Source of the DNA: Thermoanaerobacter kivui
GTDB lineage: Bacteria > Bacillota > Thermoanaerobacteria > Thermoanaerobacterales > Thermoanaerobacteraceae
Length of the DNA: 64,000 nt
Reading direction: 5' to 3'
Assembly (NCBI RefSeq): GCF_000763575.1
Contig: NZ_CP009170.1
Coordinates: 273,501-337,500, forward strand
Shown: positions 8,440 through 19,223 of the stretch, piece after piece
Numbering within the stretch: position 1 is the stretch's first letter
How the letters are laid out: each line of letters opens with the position of its first letter
Translations under genes and position numbers: made by a program
Notes under the pieces: generated by a model
What the model was told of the DNA's origin: nothing
Seen by the model: only the letters and a program-made list of their open reading frames with translations
Database searches by the model: none

Positions 8440-9543
8440 GTGGCATTGACACAGAGGGAAAAAGAGATATTGAGATTTATAAAGAAAAATCCAATGATTT
8501 CTCAAGAAGAATTAGCACAGCTTATGGGTATTAGCAGGTCAGCTGTTGCAGGGCACATAGCAAACCTCATGAAAAAGGGCTTTATATTAGGAAGAGGCTA
8601 TGTGGTGAGGGACTTTAAAGGTATTACTGTAATTGGAGGAGCAAATATAGATATAAAAGGTAAACCCTATTCAGAGCTTAAGCAGCATACTTCAAATCCG
8701 GGACACATAAACATAGCACCTGGTGGTGTAGGAAGAAATATTGCTCACAACCTTGCACAGCTTAGCTTACCTGTTACACTTTTGAGCGTTGTGGGTAATG
8801 ATGATGAAGGAAGAAGGCTTCTTGAGGAGACAAGGCAAGCAGGGGTAAATGTTGAACAGATTGTAATTTCAAACACAAGACGTACAGGCATATATCTTGC
8901 CATTCTTAATGCAATTGGCGATATGGATGTAGCTCTTTCAGGAATGGACATTTTAGAAGAGTTAAATATACAATATCTTGAGTCCAAGATGGAAGTTATA
9001 AAAAATAGTGAGATTGTAGTTTTTGATACAAATATTCCCAAAGACAGCATCAAATATATTGTGGAGTTTTGCTACAATAATAATATTCCTGTAGTGGCAG
9101 AGCCCGTTTCCATCGACAAAGCAAAAAAATTAATAGGTGTACTTGACAAAATCGATTATGTAACTCCAAATAAAGAAGAACTTGAATCGATATCTGGAGT
9201 TAAAATAGCAAATGATGAGGATATGAAAAAAGCAGTTAAATATTTAAGACAAAAAGGTGTCAAAAATGTCATAGTAACTTTAGGAGAAAGAGGGGTATAT
9301 ATTTCTTCAGAAGAAGTTGAAAAATTTATAGAACCATATCAAGCCGAAATTGTTGATGCTACAGGTGCAGGAGATGCTTTGACGGCTGGCTTGGTCTATG
9401 GTATTTTTAATGGCTATACTCTGGATGTATCGGCAAAACTTGGTCTTGCTGCGGCATCTTATACAATATCCTCACCTTATACAGTAAATCCATTTTTAAA
9501 TGAAAATCAATTAAAAAATATAGTAAAGGAGATTGTAAAATGA
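8440..9543 (+). CDS. psuK: PfkB-family sugar kinase with N-terminal HTH, probable pseudouridine kinase
   Basis: A 367-residue protein. Residues 1-60 form a winged HTH (TQREKEILRFIKKNPMISQE, then LAQLMGISRSAVAGHIANL). The rest is a PfkB ribokinase fold with GGANIDIKG, APGGVGRNIAHNLAQL and the catalytic GAGD motif (DATGAGDALTAG near residue 310). The GTG at 8440 is used, with GGGAG 9 nt upstream; the earlier in-frame ATG at 8401 would fall at the predicted transcript start. The gene overlaps psuG by 4 bp. PsuK phosphorylates pseudouridine and PsuG splits the product to uracil and ribose 5-phosphate. HTH-PfkB fusions of this type occur widely; whether the HTH binds DNA here is untested. Confidence 0.82.
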   Translation: MALTQREKEILRFIKKNPMISQEELAQLMGISRSAVAGHIANLMKKGFILGRGYVVRDFKGITVIGGANIDIKGKPYSELKQHTSNPGHINIAPGGVGRNIAHNLAQLSLPVTLLSVVGNDDEGRRLLEETRQAGVNVEQIVISNTRRTGIYLAILNAIGDMDVALSGMDILEELNIQYLESKMEVIKNSEIVVFDTNIPKDSIKYIVEFCYNNNIPVVAEPVSIDKAKKLIGVLDKIDYVTPNKEELESISGVKIANDEDMKKAVKYLRQKGVKNVIVTLGERGVYISSEEVEKFIEPYQAEIVDATGAGDALTAGLVYGIFNGYTLDVSAKLGLAAASYTISSPYTVNPFLNENQLKNIVKEIVK

Positions 9544-10463
9544 ATAAGTTTATTGATTTGTCAAAAGAAGTTAAAGAAGCAATGGAAGAAAGGAAGCCTG
9601 TTGTTGCCCTTGAGTCCACTATAATATCTCACGGAATGCCTTATCCTGAAAACATTGAGACGGCTAAAACTTTGGAGAATATTGTAAGAGAACATGGAGC
9701 TATACCTGCTACAATTGCCATTATAAATGGAAGAATAAAAATTGGATTAAGCGAAGAAAAACTCGAATTTATGGGAACTTCAAAAGAAATATTAAAAGCT
9801 AGCAGAAGAGATTTACCCGTAGTTTTAGCAAAAGGACTTAGTGCAGCCACTACAGTTTCCGCAACAATGATTTGTGCAAATCTTGCGGGCATAAAGATTT
9901 TTGTTACAGGAGGTATAGGAGGTGTCCACCGAGGAGCAGAACAAACATTTGATATATCTGCTGATTTACAAGAACTTGCAAATACAGACGTAGCAGTTGT
10001 ATGCGCAGGTGCAAAGGCAATACTTGACCTCCCACGTACTTTAGAGTACCTTGAAACCTTTGGGGTTCCTGTGGTAGGGTTTAAAACTTGGGAATTTCCA
10101 GCTTTTTATACAAGAGAAAGCGGACTTAAAGTTGATTATAAAGTTGATGACGAAATAGAGGCTGCAAAAATTATAAAGATAAAATGGGATTTAGGCTTAA
10201 AAGGTGGGGTTTTGATTGCAAATCCTATTCCAGAAGAATATGCCTTGGATAAGGCTTATATAGATAAAGCAATAGAAGATGCTCTTTATGAGGCAGAAAA
10301 ACGCAATATAAAAGGTAAAGAAATAACGCCTTTTTTGTTGGATAAAATAAAAGATTTGACACAAGGTGAAAGTTTAAAAGCTAATATTGAACTTGTCAAA
10401 AATAATGCCCATGTAGGTGCGAAAATTGCCATTGAATTAAATAAATTGTATAAAGAGGCGTAG
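9540..10463 (+). CDS. psuG: Pseudouridine-5'-phosphate glycosidase
   Basis: A 307-residue IndA/PsuG-family enzyme of typical length. Conserved blocks are VVALESTIISHGMPYPEN (active-site Glu), LAKGLSAATTVSATM (active-site Lys), VFVTGGIGGVHRG-type FVTGGIGGVHRGAEQTFDIS, and ILDLPRTLEYLETFGVPVVG. The ATG overlaps the psuK stop as ATGA, with GGAG upstream. It cleaves the C-C glycosidic bond of pseudouridine 5'-phosphate. The stop codon lies inside the left copy of the duplicated terminator that flanks the repeat element at 10474. Confidence 0.93.
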   Translation: MNKFIDLSKEVKEAMEERKPVVALESTIISHGMPYPENIETAKTLENIVREHGAIPATIAIINGRIKIGLSEEKLEFMGTSKEILKASRRDLPVVLAKGLSAATTVSATMICANLAGIKIFVTGGIGGVHRGAEQTFDISADLQELANTDVAVVCAGAKAILDLPRTLEYLETFGVPVVGFKTWEFPAFYTRESGLKVDYKVDDEIEAAKIIKIKWDLGLKGGVLIANPIPEEYALDKAYIDKAIEDALYEAEKRNIKGKEITPFLLDKIKDLTQGESLKANIELVKNNAHVGAKIAIELNKLYKEA

Positions 10464-10473
10464 TCTACTCTTT
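10452..10473 (+). terminator. Left, degenerate copy of the psuG terminator
   Basis: AAAGAGGCGTAGTCTACTCTTT overlaps the psuG stop. It matches the intact terminator at 10742-10763 at 17 of 22 positions. Only the outer AAAGAG/CTCTTT arms still pair well. Confidence 0.5.
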
Positions 10474-10741
10474 CAAACTGTAGACAAACTTTCGTAAGGG
10501 AGAGATTTTGCATAAGGAGCGACTTGTTACAAAGCGATAACAAAACTTAGCAAGACCGAGGGTGGAGGCAGGGCCGAAGCCATGGATGGCGGAGGCGGGC
10601 ACCTTAAGGCATGGATGCCGGTTGTGCCCGGTACCCTGCCGGAGCCTGAAGGTCGAGCTTTTAGTTTTGTCGCTTTGGAACATCGGAGCGACGATGCAAA
10701 ATATCTACTTTGAAAATTTTTTTAACTTTATCAACAAATTG
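10474..10741. repeat. Long-hairpin repeat element, copy 1 (268 bp)
   Basis: Non-coding and GC-richer than its surroundings. It begins CAAACTGTAGACAAAC and ends with the roughly inverted CAACAAATTG. The whole element folds on itself: ATTTTGCAT near the left end is repeated inverted near the right end, CAAAGCG...ACAAAACTTAGC pairs with its inverted counterpart near 10650-10676, GGCAGGG pairs with CCCTGCC, and a GGGCAC/GTGCCC stem encloses GGCA/TGCC. A second copy lies at 18926-19188. Short open frames across it are by-products of its composition. It is placed exactly between two copies of the psuG terminator. A MITE-like mobile element or a structured RNA are both possible. Confidence 0.75.
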
Positions 10742-10763
10742 AAAGAGGCGTAATCCGCCTCTT
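10742..10763. terminator. Intact terminator between the repeat element and tlp
   Basis: AAAGAGGCG / CGCCTCTT hairpin with a TAATC loop region. It also serves the leftward tlp gene, whose stop lies 5 nt away. Confidence 0.75.
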
Positions 10764-17734: not shown

Positions 17735-18901
17735 ATGTTAAAAGCGGTTCATTTTGGAGCAGGGAATATAGGCAGAGGATTTATAGGGTATTTGCTTTAT
17801 AAATCTGAATATGAAATAACTTTTGTTGATATATCTAAAGAATTGGTAGAAAGTATAAATACCTATAAAAGATATAATGTGATTATTTTAAAAGATAATG
17901 TGGAAAAGGAAGAAGTAAAAAACATCAAAGCTATTCATATCGAAGATGAAGAAAATCTATCCAAGGCTATTGTAGATGCAGATATAATTACGACTTCAGT
18001 AGGAGCTAATAATCTTAAGAGCATAGGGGAAAAATTAAGAAATTATTTAAAGATAAGAAAAGCTAACATTGATAAACCTTTGAATATAATGGCATGCGAA
18101 AATGCACTGTTTGCAACAAATATACTAAAAAATAGTATATTGGAAAAAGAGGATAAAGATTTTATTGAGTACGTAAATCAAAAAATTGGTTTTCCTAATA
18201 CGGCTGTGGACAGGATAGTACCGAATGTAGATATAAAGAAAGAACTGCCAATAGATGTAGCAGTTGAAGATTTTTATGAATGGGATATTGACAAAAAAGC
18301 AATTATTGGGGATTTAAATATCAAAGGGGTGGAACTTGTCGCTGACCTTGAACCTTATATAGAGAGAAAATTATTTTTATTAAATGGAGCCCATGCTACC
18401 ACTGCATATTTAGGATATTTAAAAGGGTATAAATATATACATGAAGCGATTGAGGATGATTTTATAAGAAATATAGTGTCTGGAATGCAAGAAGAAGCTT
18501 CTCTTGCGCTTTCTAGAAAGCACAATATAAAAAAAGATGAGTTAGGGAGGTATGCAAGTAAGGTAATAAAAAGGTTTAAAAACTCCTATTTAAAAGACGA
18601 AGTTGTAAGAGTAGGGAGAGAGCCTACAAGGAAATTAGCGGGAAATGACCGGTTAATGATGCCTGCTAAGTTTTGCTACGAAATTGGAGTTATGCCCCAA
18701 TTTATACTATACGGTATAGCTGCAGGGCTTTTGTTTGATTATAAGGAAGACCCTAAAGCTTGTGAAATCCAAAATGACATTAAAAATTTCGGTTTAGAAA
18801 AAACAATAAGCAAAGTTACAGGTTTAGAAGAAAATAGTGGTTTATTGCAGGAAATTGTAAAAAAATATAAAGAATTGAAAGAAGCTTTTGGAAAAAGATG
18901 A
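17735..18901 (+). CDS. mtlD: Mannitol-1-phosphate 5-dehydrogenase
   Basis: A 388-residue NAD-dependent dehydrogenase that converts mannitol 1-phosphate to fructose 6-phosphate. The Rossmann motif is at the N-terminus ([15 protein letters not shown]). The catalytic-domain signature [20 protein letters not shown] includes the conserved Lys and Asn-Gly-Ala-His region. The ATG at 17735 follows AAAGGTGATG at a normal distance; the more upstream in-frame starts lie within that site. Last gene of the mtl operon; its terminator hairpin begins at the stop codon. Confidence 0.95.
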
Positions 18902-18925
18902 TATAGATTGGATTCTATATTATCT
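18896..18925 (+). terminator. Left copy of the mtlD terminator hairpin
   Basis: AGATGATATAGATTGG followed by ATTCTATATTATCT forms a hairpin beginning at the mtlD stop. It is 28/30 identical to 19189-19218 on the far side of the repeat element, and has lost its T-run to the element. Confidence 0.6.
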
Positions 18926-19188
18926 CAGACTGTAAACAAACTTTCGGAAAGGAGATATTTTGCATAAGGAGCGACTTGTGACAAAGCGTTAACAAAACTT
19001 AGCAAGACCGAGGGTGGAGGCAGGGCCGAAGCCAAGGAGGGCGGAGGCGGGCACCTGAGACAGGATGTCGAATGTGCCCGGAACCCTGCCGGAACCCGAA
19101 GGTCGAGCTTAGTTTTGTCGCTTTGGAACACTGGAGCTACGATGCAAAATATCTCCTTTAAAAAATTTTTGACTTTGTCAACAAACTG
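18926..19188. repeat. Long-hairpin repeat element, copy 2 (263 bp)
   Basis: Second copy of the element at 10474-10741, in the same orientation relative to the upstream gene. It begins CAGACTGTAAACAAAC and ends CAACAAACTG. GGAGATATTTTGCAT near the left end recurs perfectly inverted near the right end. Internal helices match copy 1. The tip differs in a structure-preserving way: GACA/TGTC here where copy 1 has GGCA/TGCC. No protein-coding capacity. Flanked by two copies of the mtlD terminator. Confidence 0.75.
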
Positions 19189-19223
19189 AGATGATATAGA
19201 TTGAATTCTATATCATCTTTTTC
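19189..19223 (+). terminator. Right copy of the mtlD terminator
   Basis: Perfect hairpin arms AGATGATATAGA / TCTATATCATCT followed by a T-run; the functional terminator after element copy 2. Confidence 0.75.

Follow-up and report, generated by a model that had tools for sequence, protein, structure and literature searches.

Bacterial MITEs are short, non-coding elements, present in many copies, which share their terminal inverted repeats with an autonomous IS and are accompanied by a target duplication. Group IIC introns insert beside terminator hairpins, and REP/BIME are palindromes of 20-40 bp associated with a RAYT (Y1) transposase and a GTAG/CGTC tag. IS1272 and TnSha1, IS1182 relatives from staphylococci, target terminators and other hairpins without any sequence consensus, and the hairpin is deleted or replaced, with no duplication left (PMC4923244, PMC5678879). 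Duplication of the hairpin has been drawn as a hypothetical alternative, through attack at the 5' foot (PMC5678879, Fig 13, pathway b). On the RNA side, the loops of the family TwoAYGGAY (RF01731), which is typed as cis-regulatory by Rfam, were earlier proposed as CsrA sites (PMC4333381).

A stretch of 64,000 nucleotides of the Thermoanaerobacter kivui genome (the window) was found to carry two copies of an element that is very probably a non-autonomous transposon (MITE) with a structured RNA of TwoAYGGAY type as its interior. The element has its ends in common with an IS of the IS1182 family, and both insert at terminator hairpins and have a full hairpin on each side. There are precedents for each ingredient, namely the MITE, the targeting of hairpins by IS1182 and TwoAYGGAY. 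Judged by the literature searched, what is new is that a family of structured RNAs already named is linked to transposons in several lineages, and that an IS1182-type system duplicates the hairpin as a whole; no report of IS1182 with hairpin duplication, of CsrA sponges carried by mobile elements or of TwoAYGGAY as a mobile element was found there.

Copy 1 (10474..10741, + strand in the RNA sense, 268 bp; L001 1505-1772) begins and ends with CAAACTGTAGACAAAC...TATCAACAAATTG, and copy 2 (18926..19188, + strand, 263 bp; L007 1502-1764) is 89% alike across most of the length. These boundaries, of transposon type, were obtained independently from a comparison of 72 copies, and they coincide with those that an initial annotation had drawn from the two copies. 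Copy 1 is flanked by an ORF at 9540-10463 and, on the opposite strand, by the small acid-soluble spore protein gene tlp, and copy 2 is preceded by mtlD (mannitol-1-phosphate 5-dehydrogenase). The initial annotation had missed that the local terminator hairpin occurs twice at each copy, once on either side. At copy 1, the left hairpin, AAAGAGGCGTAGTCTACTCTTT, occupies 10452..10473, with the element in the place of its own T-tract, and the right one, AAAGAGGCGTAATCCGCCTCTT, occupies 10742..10763. At copy 2, the left copy of the mtlD terminator hairpin, AGATGATATAGATTGGATTCTATATTATCT, lies at 18896..18925 and the right one, AGATGATATAGATTGAATTCTATATCATCT, at 19189..19218, where it is followed by a T-tract. 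There was no transposase gene inside these elements of ~265 bp; a short ORF merely overlaps the edge of copy 1.

More copies than these two exist: 32 matches, including fragments (~30 copies or fragments), were detected in the T. kivui genome, and many matches were found in all ten congener genomes searched. The general ends of the element are CAGACTGTAGACAAA...TTTGTCAACAAACTG. When the 72 copies were aligned by their ends, a constant boundary, CAGACTGTAGACAAAC ... GTCAACAAACTG, was obtained, outside of which the sequence differed from locus to locus, yet the left flank equalled the right flank. The flanking direct repeats were formed by the complete local terminator hairpin, one per side, with a duplication of 18-33 bp. 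The two flanks aligned at a score of >=12 in 65 of the 72 copies, compared with 1.3% of mispaired flanks between loci, and a strict suffix/prefix rule recovered flank repeats in 57/72 copies vs 0.35% of mispaired ones, these repeats having a length of 13-33 (median 24) and an identity of 96%. The self-complementarity of the repeats was 85% vs 26% in random segments, and the right repeats were followed by about 5 T per 8 bases. The shortest description of these data is that the length of the target duplication is set by the hairpin, without a fixed stagger. Furthermore, in nine other genomes of the genus the site of copy 1 was occupied by a single hairpin with no element, while copy 2 had an orthologue in G002 and its site was empty in the remaining genomes of the genus where it was located.

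When the end sequences were searched for in the T. kivui genome, three pairs of ends were found, each spaced by exactly 1566 bp and delimiting an IS of ~1.57 kb whose terminal inverted repeats, CAGACTGTWGACAAA / TTTGTCAACAAACTG, are common to the MITE. The ORF between these end pairs encodes P0001, which scored 497.7 bits against the IS1182 model NF033551 (curated cut-off 270), placing the partner IS in the IS1182 family. Perfect or near-perfect hairpin duplications flank the T. kivui IS copies L062 (28 bp), L063 and L070, and each of the eight intact IS copies examined in the congener G008 was likewise bordered by hairpin duplications. At locus L168 of G003, the MITE and the IS adjoin within one hairpin, which is now threefold. 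Since both have the same ends and the same target behaviour, and occur together in a single hairpin at L168, we infer that the MITE is moved by an IS1182-family transposase of the P0001 type. The shared ends, the duplications, the empty sites and the autonomous IS1182-family partner together identify as a MITE an element in which the initial annotation had recognised none. Mobility and the target mechanism are the firm result of this analysis.

Some IS copies behaved otherwise. L061 was bordered by just a 6-bp repeat (CTTCAC), with no hairpin at its flanks, so that the choice of hairpins as targets may have exceptions. L069 and the IS copies of G009 were rearranged or lacked a duplication. A strong promoter match, TTGACA-17-TATGAT, was located in the IS end (L063 989-1017), so that the terminal repeat at the same time provides the transposase promoter with its -35 box.

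The interior of these elements is variable. MITEs with IS1182-type ends and unrelated interiors (~45, 170 and 191 bp, and longer) were observed at L064-L067, L078 and L079, and one of them, L064, also carries a duplicated hairpin; as these same-ended MITEs lack the RNA core, the core is dispensable for mobility. Modular variation of the element itself was seen in T. kivui at L008, L015, L017, L021 and L030. In some copies of this genome a further hairpin of 71 bp, CCGGCACTCAAGTA...TACTTGAGTGCCGG, is present around element position 70, and the tip of some is a variant in which ACCTGACGTAGG replaces the GTGCCCGG arm. Additionally, a group II intron-like sequence (GTGCGCCCGGCATGGGCGAT...) was noticed just downstream of the terminator at the orthologous site of copy 1 in G009 (L199), and another one after the right hairpin of an IS copy in G008 (L267). 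Thus, two unrelated kinds of mobile element use the same terminators, that of copy 1 and the IS hairpin in G008.

The comparison with the described systems separates this element from each of them. The partner IS shares an IS1182-type transposase and a hairpin target with IS1272 and TnSha1; however, these remove the hairpin, whereas the Thermoanaerobacter MITE and IS duplicate it entirely, which fits the pathway b drawn in PMC5678879. The element resembles bacterial MITEs in its small size, lack of coding capacity, IS-shared terminal inverted repeats, target duplication and number of copies, and differs from MITEs in general in having a conserved structured-RNA core that in other lineages is found between unrelated ends. 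Like Group IIC introns it adjoins terminator hairpins, but it has no ribozyme core or RT and has instead inverted-repeat ends and a two-sided hairpin duplication. A group II intron remnant was ruled out, as intron ends are absent and the termini are inverted repeats. An assignment to REP/BIME failed with an element of 265 bp and a DDE partner of IS1182 type, and an IS200/IS605 omega RNA or REP was discarded because the partner is of the DDE type and target duplications are present. A stand-alone ncRNA gene was also ruled out by the orthologous sites without the element and by the duplications on its flanks.

The fold of the element was studied in an alignment (A1) of 56 distinct copies, which gave a consensus of 65 pairs formed in 98.1% of the cells, or 98.8% once a one-base loop gap affecting 13 rows was corrected. 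Changes on both sides were found at 20 pairs, compared with 8.1 +/- 1.4 in shuffles (0/500 reaching this number), and sliding the partner by 1-3 columns left <=8 two-sided pairs; these controls are not to be read as probabilities, because the alignment tested is also the one that yielded the fold, and because the copies share ancestry. The covarying pair noticed at the tip of the two window copies proved to be real and general, with 29 G-C and 27 A-U copies at columns 154/163 of the corrected alignment (29 GC, 14 AU and 13 GU before correction). In comparison with dinucleotide shuffles, the folds of copy 1 and copy 2 had z values of -7.5 and -13.9, respectively, with 0/100 shuffles as good.

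A second test, independent of both the derivation of the fold and the relatedness of the copies, was based on parsimony on a tree of the copies read on the + strand. Of the inferred changes away from standard pairs, 49 led to G-U and 16 to A-C, while the corresponding base changes in unpaired columns leaned in the opposite direction, 66 vs 90 (p = 6e-8 for the paired excess). The G-U excess was seen alike in the outer, middle and inner (core) helices, as well as in subsamples. A process acting on double-stranded DNA, or conversion from arm to arm, is disfavoured because neither should distinguish the strands and the excess is one-stranded. These results indicated that the + strand of the element evolved under a constraint that keeps one fold with two GGA apical loops. 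The selection on a folded single strand that had been proposed from the two window copies was thus borne out by the two-sided covariation and the G-U excess, on the + strand only. The selected molecule is likely to be RNA, probably that of the + strand, with single-stranded DNA of the + strand as the alternative.

Regarding the identity of the core, an Rfam search of the whole window at gathering thresholds gave no match on the element, and the initial annotation had recognised no named RNA family in it. At an E-value threshold, however, its inner ~156-160 nt matched RF01731 over the full model (1-168) with 35-43 bits. The cores lie just below the gathering threshold of 43 and fail the formal score test: the best scores were 42.7 in the sister genus, 40.4 in the T. 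kivui genome and 35.2 in copy 2, where the TwoAYGGAY-like RNA core spans 18976..19131 on the + strand. A covariance model, R1, built solely from 20 cores of the genus Thermoanaerobacter recovered, at the same coordinates, above-threshold RF01731 members of many other families with E values of 2e-14 to 1e-3; the RF01731 copies of G153 were missed in this search. TwoAYGGAY and the element have the same order of helices, and in both two hairpins with apical ANGGAY loops stand in a three-way arrangement beneath a long stem. They also have in common a GA flanking the second apical stem on both sides, as in CCUGA-GGCAAGGACGCC-GAAUGG (RF01731, G020) and CCUGA-GACAGGAUGUC-GAAUGUG (copy 2). Because of the reciprocal model matches and the common details of the loops and the GA, the core is treated, despite its sub-threshold score, as a diverged TwoAYGGAY member by homology. 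The element can hence no longer be regarded as foreign to every described family, and it is the mobile setting of RF01731 that was not found described in the literature searched.

The two loops were located in the window copies. In copy 1, apical loop 1 is AUGGAU (10582..10587, + strand), closed by the stem GCC 10579-10581 / GGC 10588-10590, and apical loop 2 is also AUGGAU (10611..10616, + strand), closed by GGC 10608-10610 / GCC 10617-10619; loop 2 is enclosed by the + strand stem GGGCAC 10597-10602 / GUGCCC 10624-10629, with the covarying stem pair. In copy 2, loop 1 was read from the sequence as AAGGAG (19034..19039, + strand) and loop 2 as AGGAU (19062..19066, + strand), the latter with the stem GAC 19059-19061 / GUC 19067-19069.

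Among 398 genomes of the phylum, RF01731 was present in 51, often in many copies (29 in G020), and all the examples read were long inverted repeats. Three TwoAYGGAY families have IS1182-type ends and hairpin duplications, and the others have unrelated ends. In G153, five above-threshold RF01731 loci carry CAGACTGTAGACAAA-type ends, with clear flank repeats at four of them, and an above-threshold locus of G067 (L219) has ends of the same type and an exact 20-bp hairpin, AGGGCCGTTTTTACGGCCCT, on both sides. The RF01731 members of G020/G022, G064/G322, G093, G039 and G047 have other ends, for which boundaries and duplications were worked out in part. The finding of unrelated ends around the same core implies that the RNA module persists as transposon ends change, and the whole suggests that the TwoAYGGAY family travels on transposons. 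In the sister genus (L040-L045), one TwoAYGGAY-like copy without recognisable IS ends was observed between S41 peptidase and glycerate kinase genes. At this conserved ctp/glycerate-kinase site it lies in opposite orientations in different species, which suggests in-place inversion or repeated insertion.

As to how the element came to its present sites, the transposase would act in trans on the MITE ends and join them to the target hairpin at both of its feet, the hairpin being perhaps extruded as a cruciform, after which gap repair would leave the whole hairpin duplicated. With the insertion, the T-tract is separated from the upstream hairpin by the element and stays with the downstream hairpin. 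Because of this, the simplest route to an RNA would be that transcription of the upstream gene reads through the element and stops at the second hairpin, with little harm and with production of the element RNA. In the least certain step, this RNA would bind CsrA through its two GGA loops, titrating it or being handled by it.

This last step belongs to an explanation which we hold tentatively, short of an even balance: the element would be a CsrA-binding RNA spread by transposons, each copy offering two predicted CsrA sites and serving as a dispersed sponge or a CsrA-responsive 3' UTR element. The loops, of the form C-ANGGAY-G, resemble the CsrA site, in agreement with the earlier proposal for TwoAYGGAY (PMC4333381), and GGA was retained in 53/56 copies at loop 1 and 54/56 at loop 2. 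T. kivui encodes csrA, and CsrA was found in 49/51 genomes with RF01731 vs 236/347 of the others (Fisher p = 3e-6, not corrected for phylogeny). Binding of CsrA is a plausible candidate function of the element RNA. Against the explanation, RF01731 matches occur in G213 and G265, where no CsrA was detected, and G003 has CsrA but lost the loops. In the G003 copies read (L162, L168 and L171), both GGA loops are replaced, by GCGAAAGC and CCTGAAAGG, and the ends are kept, with hairpin duplications visible around L162 and L168. An absence of CsrA was ruled out as the cause of this loss, as csrA is present in G003.

Orientation also weighs against the CsrA explanation. No orientation bias relative to the host genes was found, tandem contexts comprising 16 same-sense and 12 antisense copies, so that sense transcription selected by the host at each site was ruled out. 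The occurrence of both orientations in these gene contexts and at the ctp/glycerate-kinase site means that individual copies need not be transcribed in the sense direction. A promoter-like sequence, TAGACA/TTGACA-17-TATTTT, was observed at the + end of 46/56 copies, and no consensus promoter at the element start passed the scan in window copies 1 and 2.

With similar reserve we regard as possible, at rather less than even confidence, that the element is a purely selfish MITE, whose hairpin would matter as DNA alone, in cruciform or single-stranded form, for instance during replication or as a substrate of the transposase, with no functional RNA. The unbiased orientation and the occurrence of both orientations at one conserved site speak for it, as do the same-ended MITEs with unrelated interiors and locus L162 of G003, which has no GGA loops and still shows the hairpin duplication. 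However, a strand-neutral process would not give the 49:16 excess of G-U over A-C on one strand only. Moreover, families whose ends are unrelated still have both GGA loops and the second hairpin with its flanking GA, and the RNA core was conserved while ends were exchanged.

A role in transcriptional punctuation appears improbable. The long hairpin with its two terminators would here be a bidirectional terminator or a REP-like stabiliser of mRNA 3' ends, as might be suggested by the location of nearly all copies at a terminator and by their gene contexts (13 convergent and 0 divergent among the 41 copies with both neighbours called). Nevertheless, this position follows from target choice alone, and the conserved GGA loops and the kinship with TwoAYGGAY are left unexplained. 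Finally, arm-to-arm gene conversion or template switching is a known way in which long quasi-palindromes are corrected, but covariation arising in this manner without selection is very improbable here, as such events would erase internal loops that are in fact conserved and would give G-U no advantage over A-C.

The mobile MITE with a TwoAYGGAY-type interior has several implications. An Rfam family of unexplained function, listed as cis-regulatory, is here and in other lineages a conserved cargo of mobile elements, and the search for its function must change accordingly. The hairpin duplications provide dozens of natural, sequence-independent cases for the recognition of DNA structure by DDE transposases, and the duplication of the terminator offers a simple explanation for the insertion and transcription of an element in a 3' UTR with termination left intact. 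Several lineages supply multicopy material for the CsrA proposal. A wider reading, which we consider somewhat unlikely at present, is that TwoAYGGAY is a transposon-borne regulatory RNA, a module of two CsrA sites that repeatedly gains new transposon ends and spreads in Clostridia-like genomes via terminators. If this were true, how many sites are available to a global post-transcriptional regulator would be set by the copy number of a mobile element.
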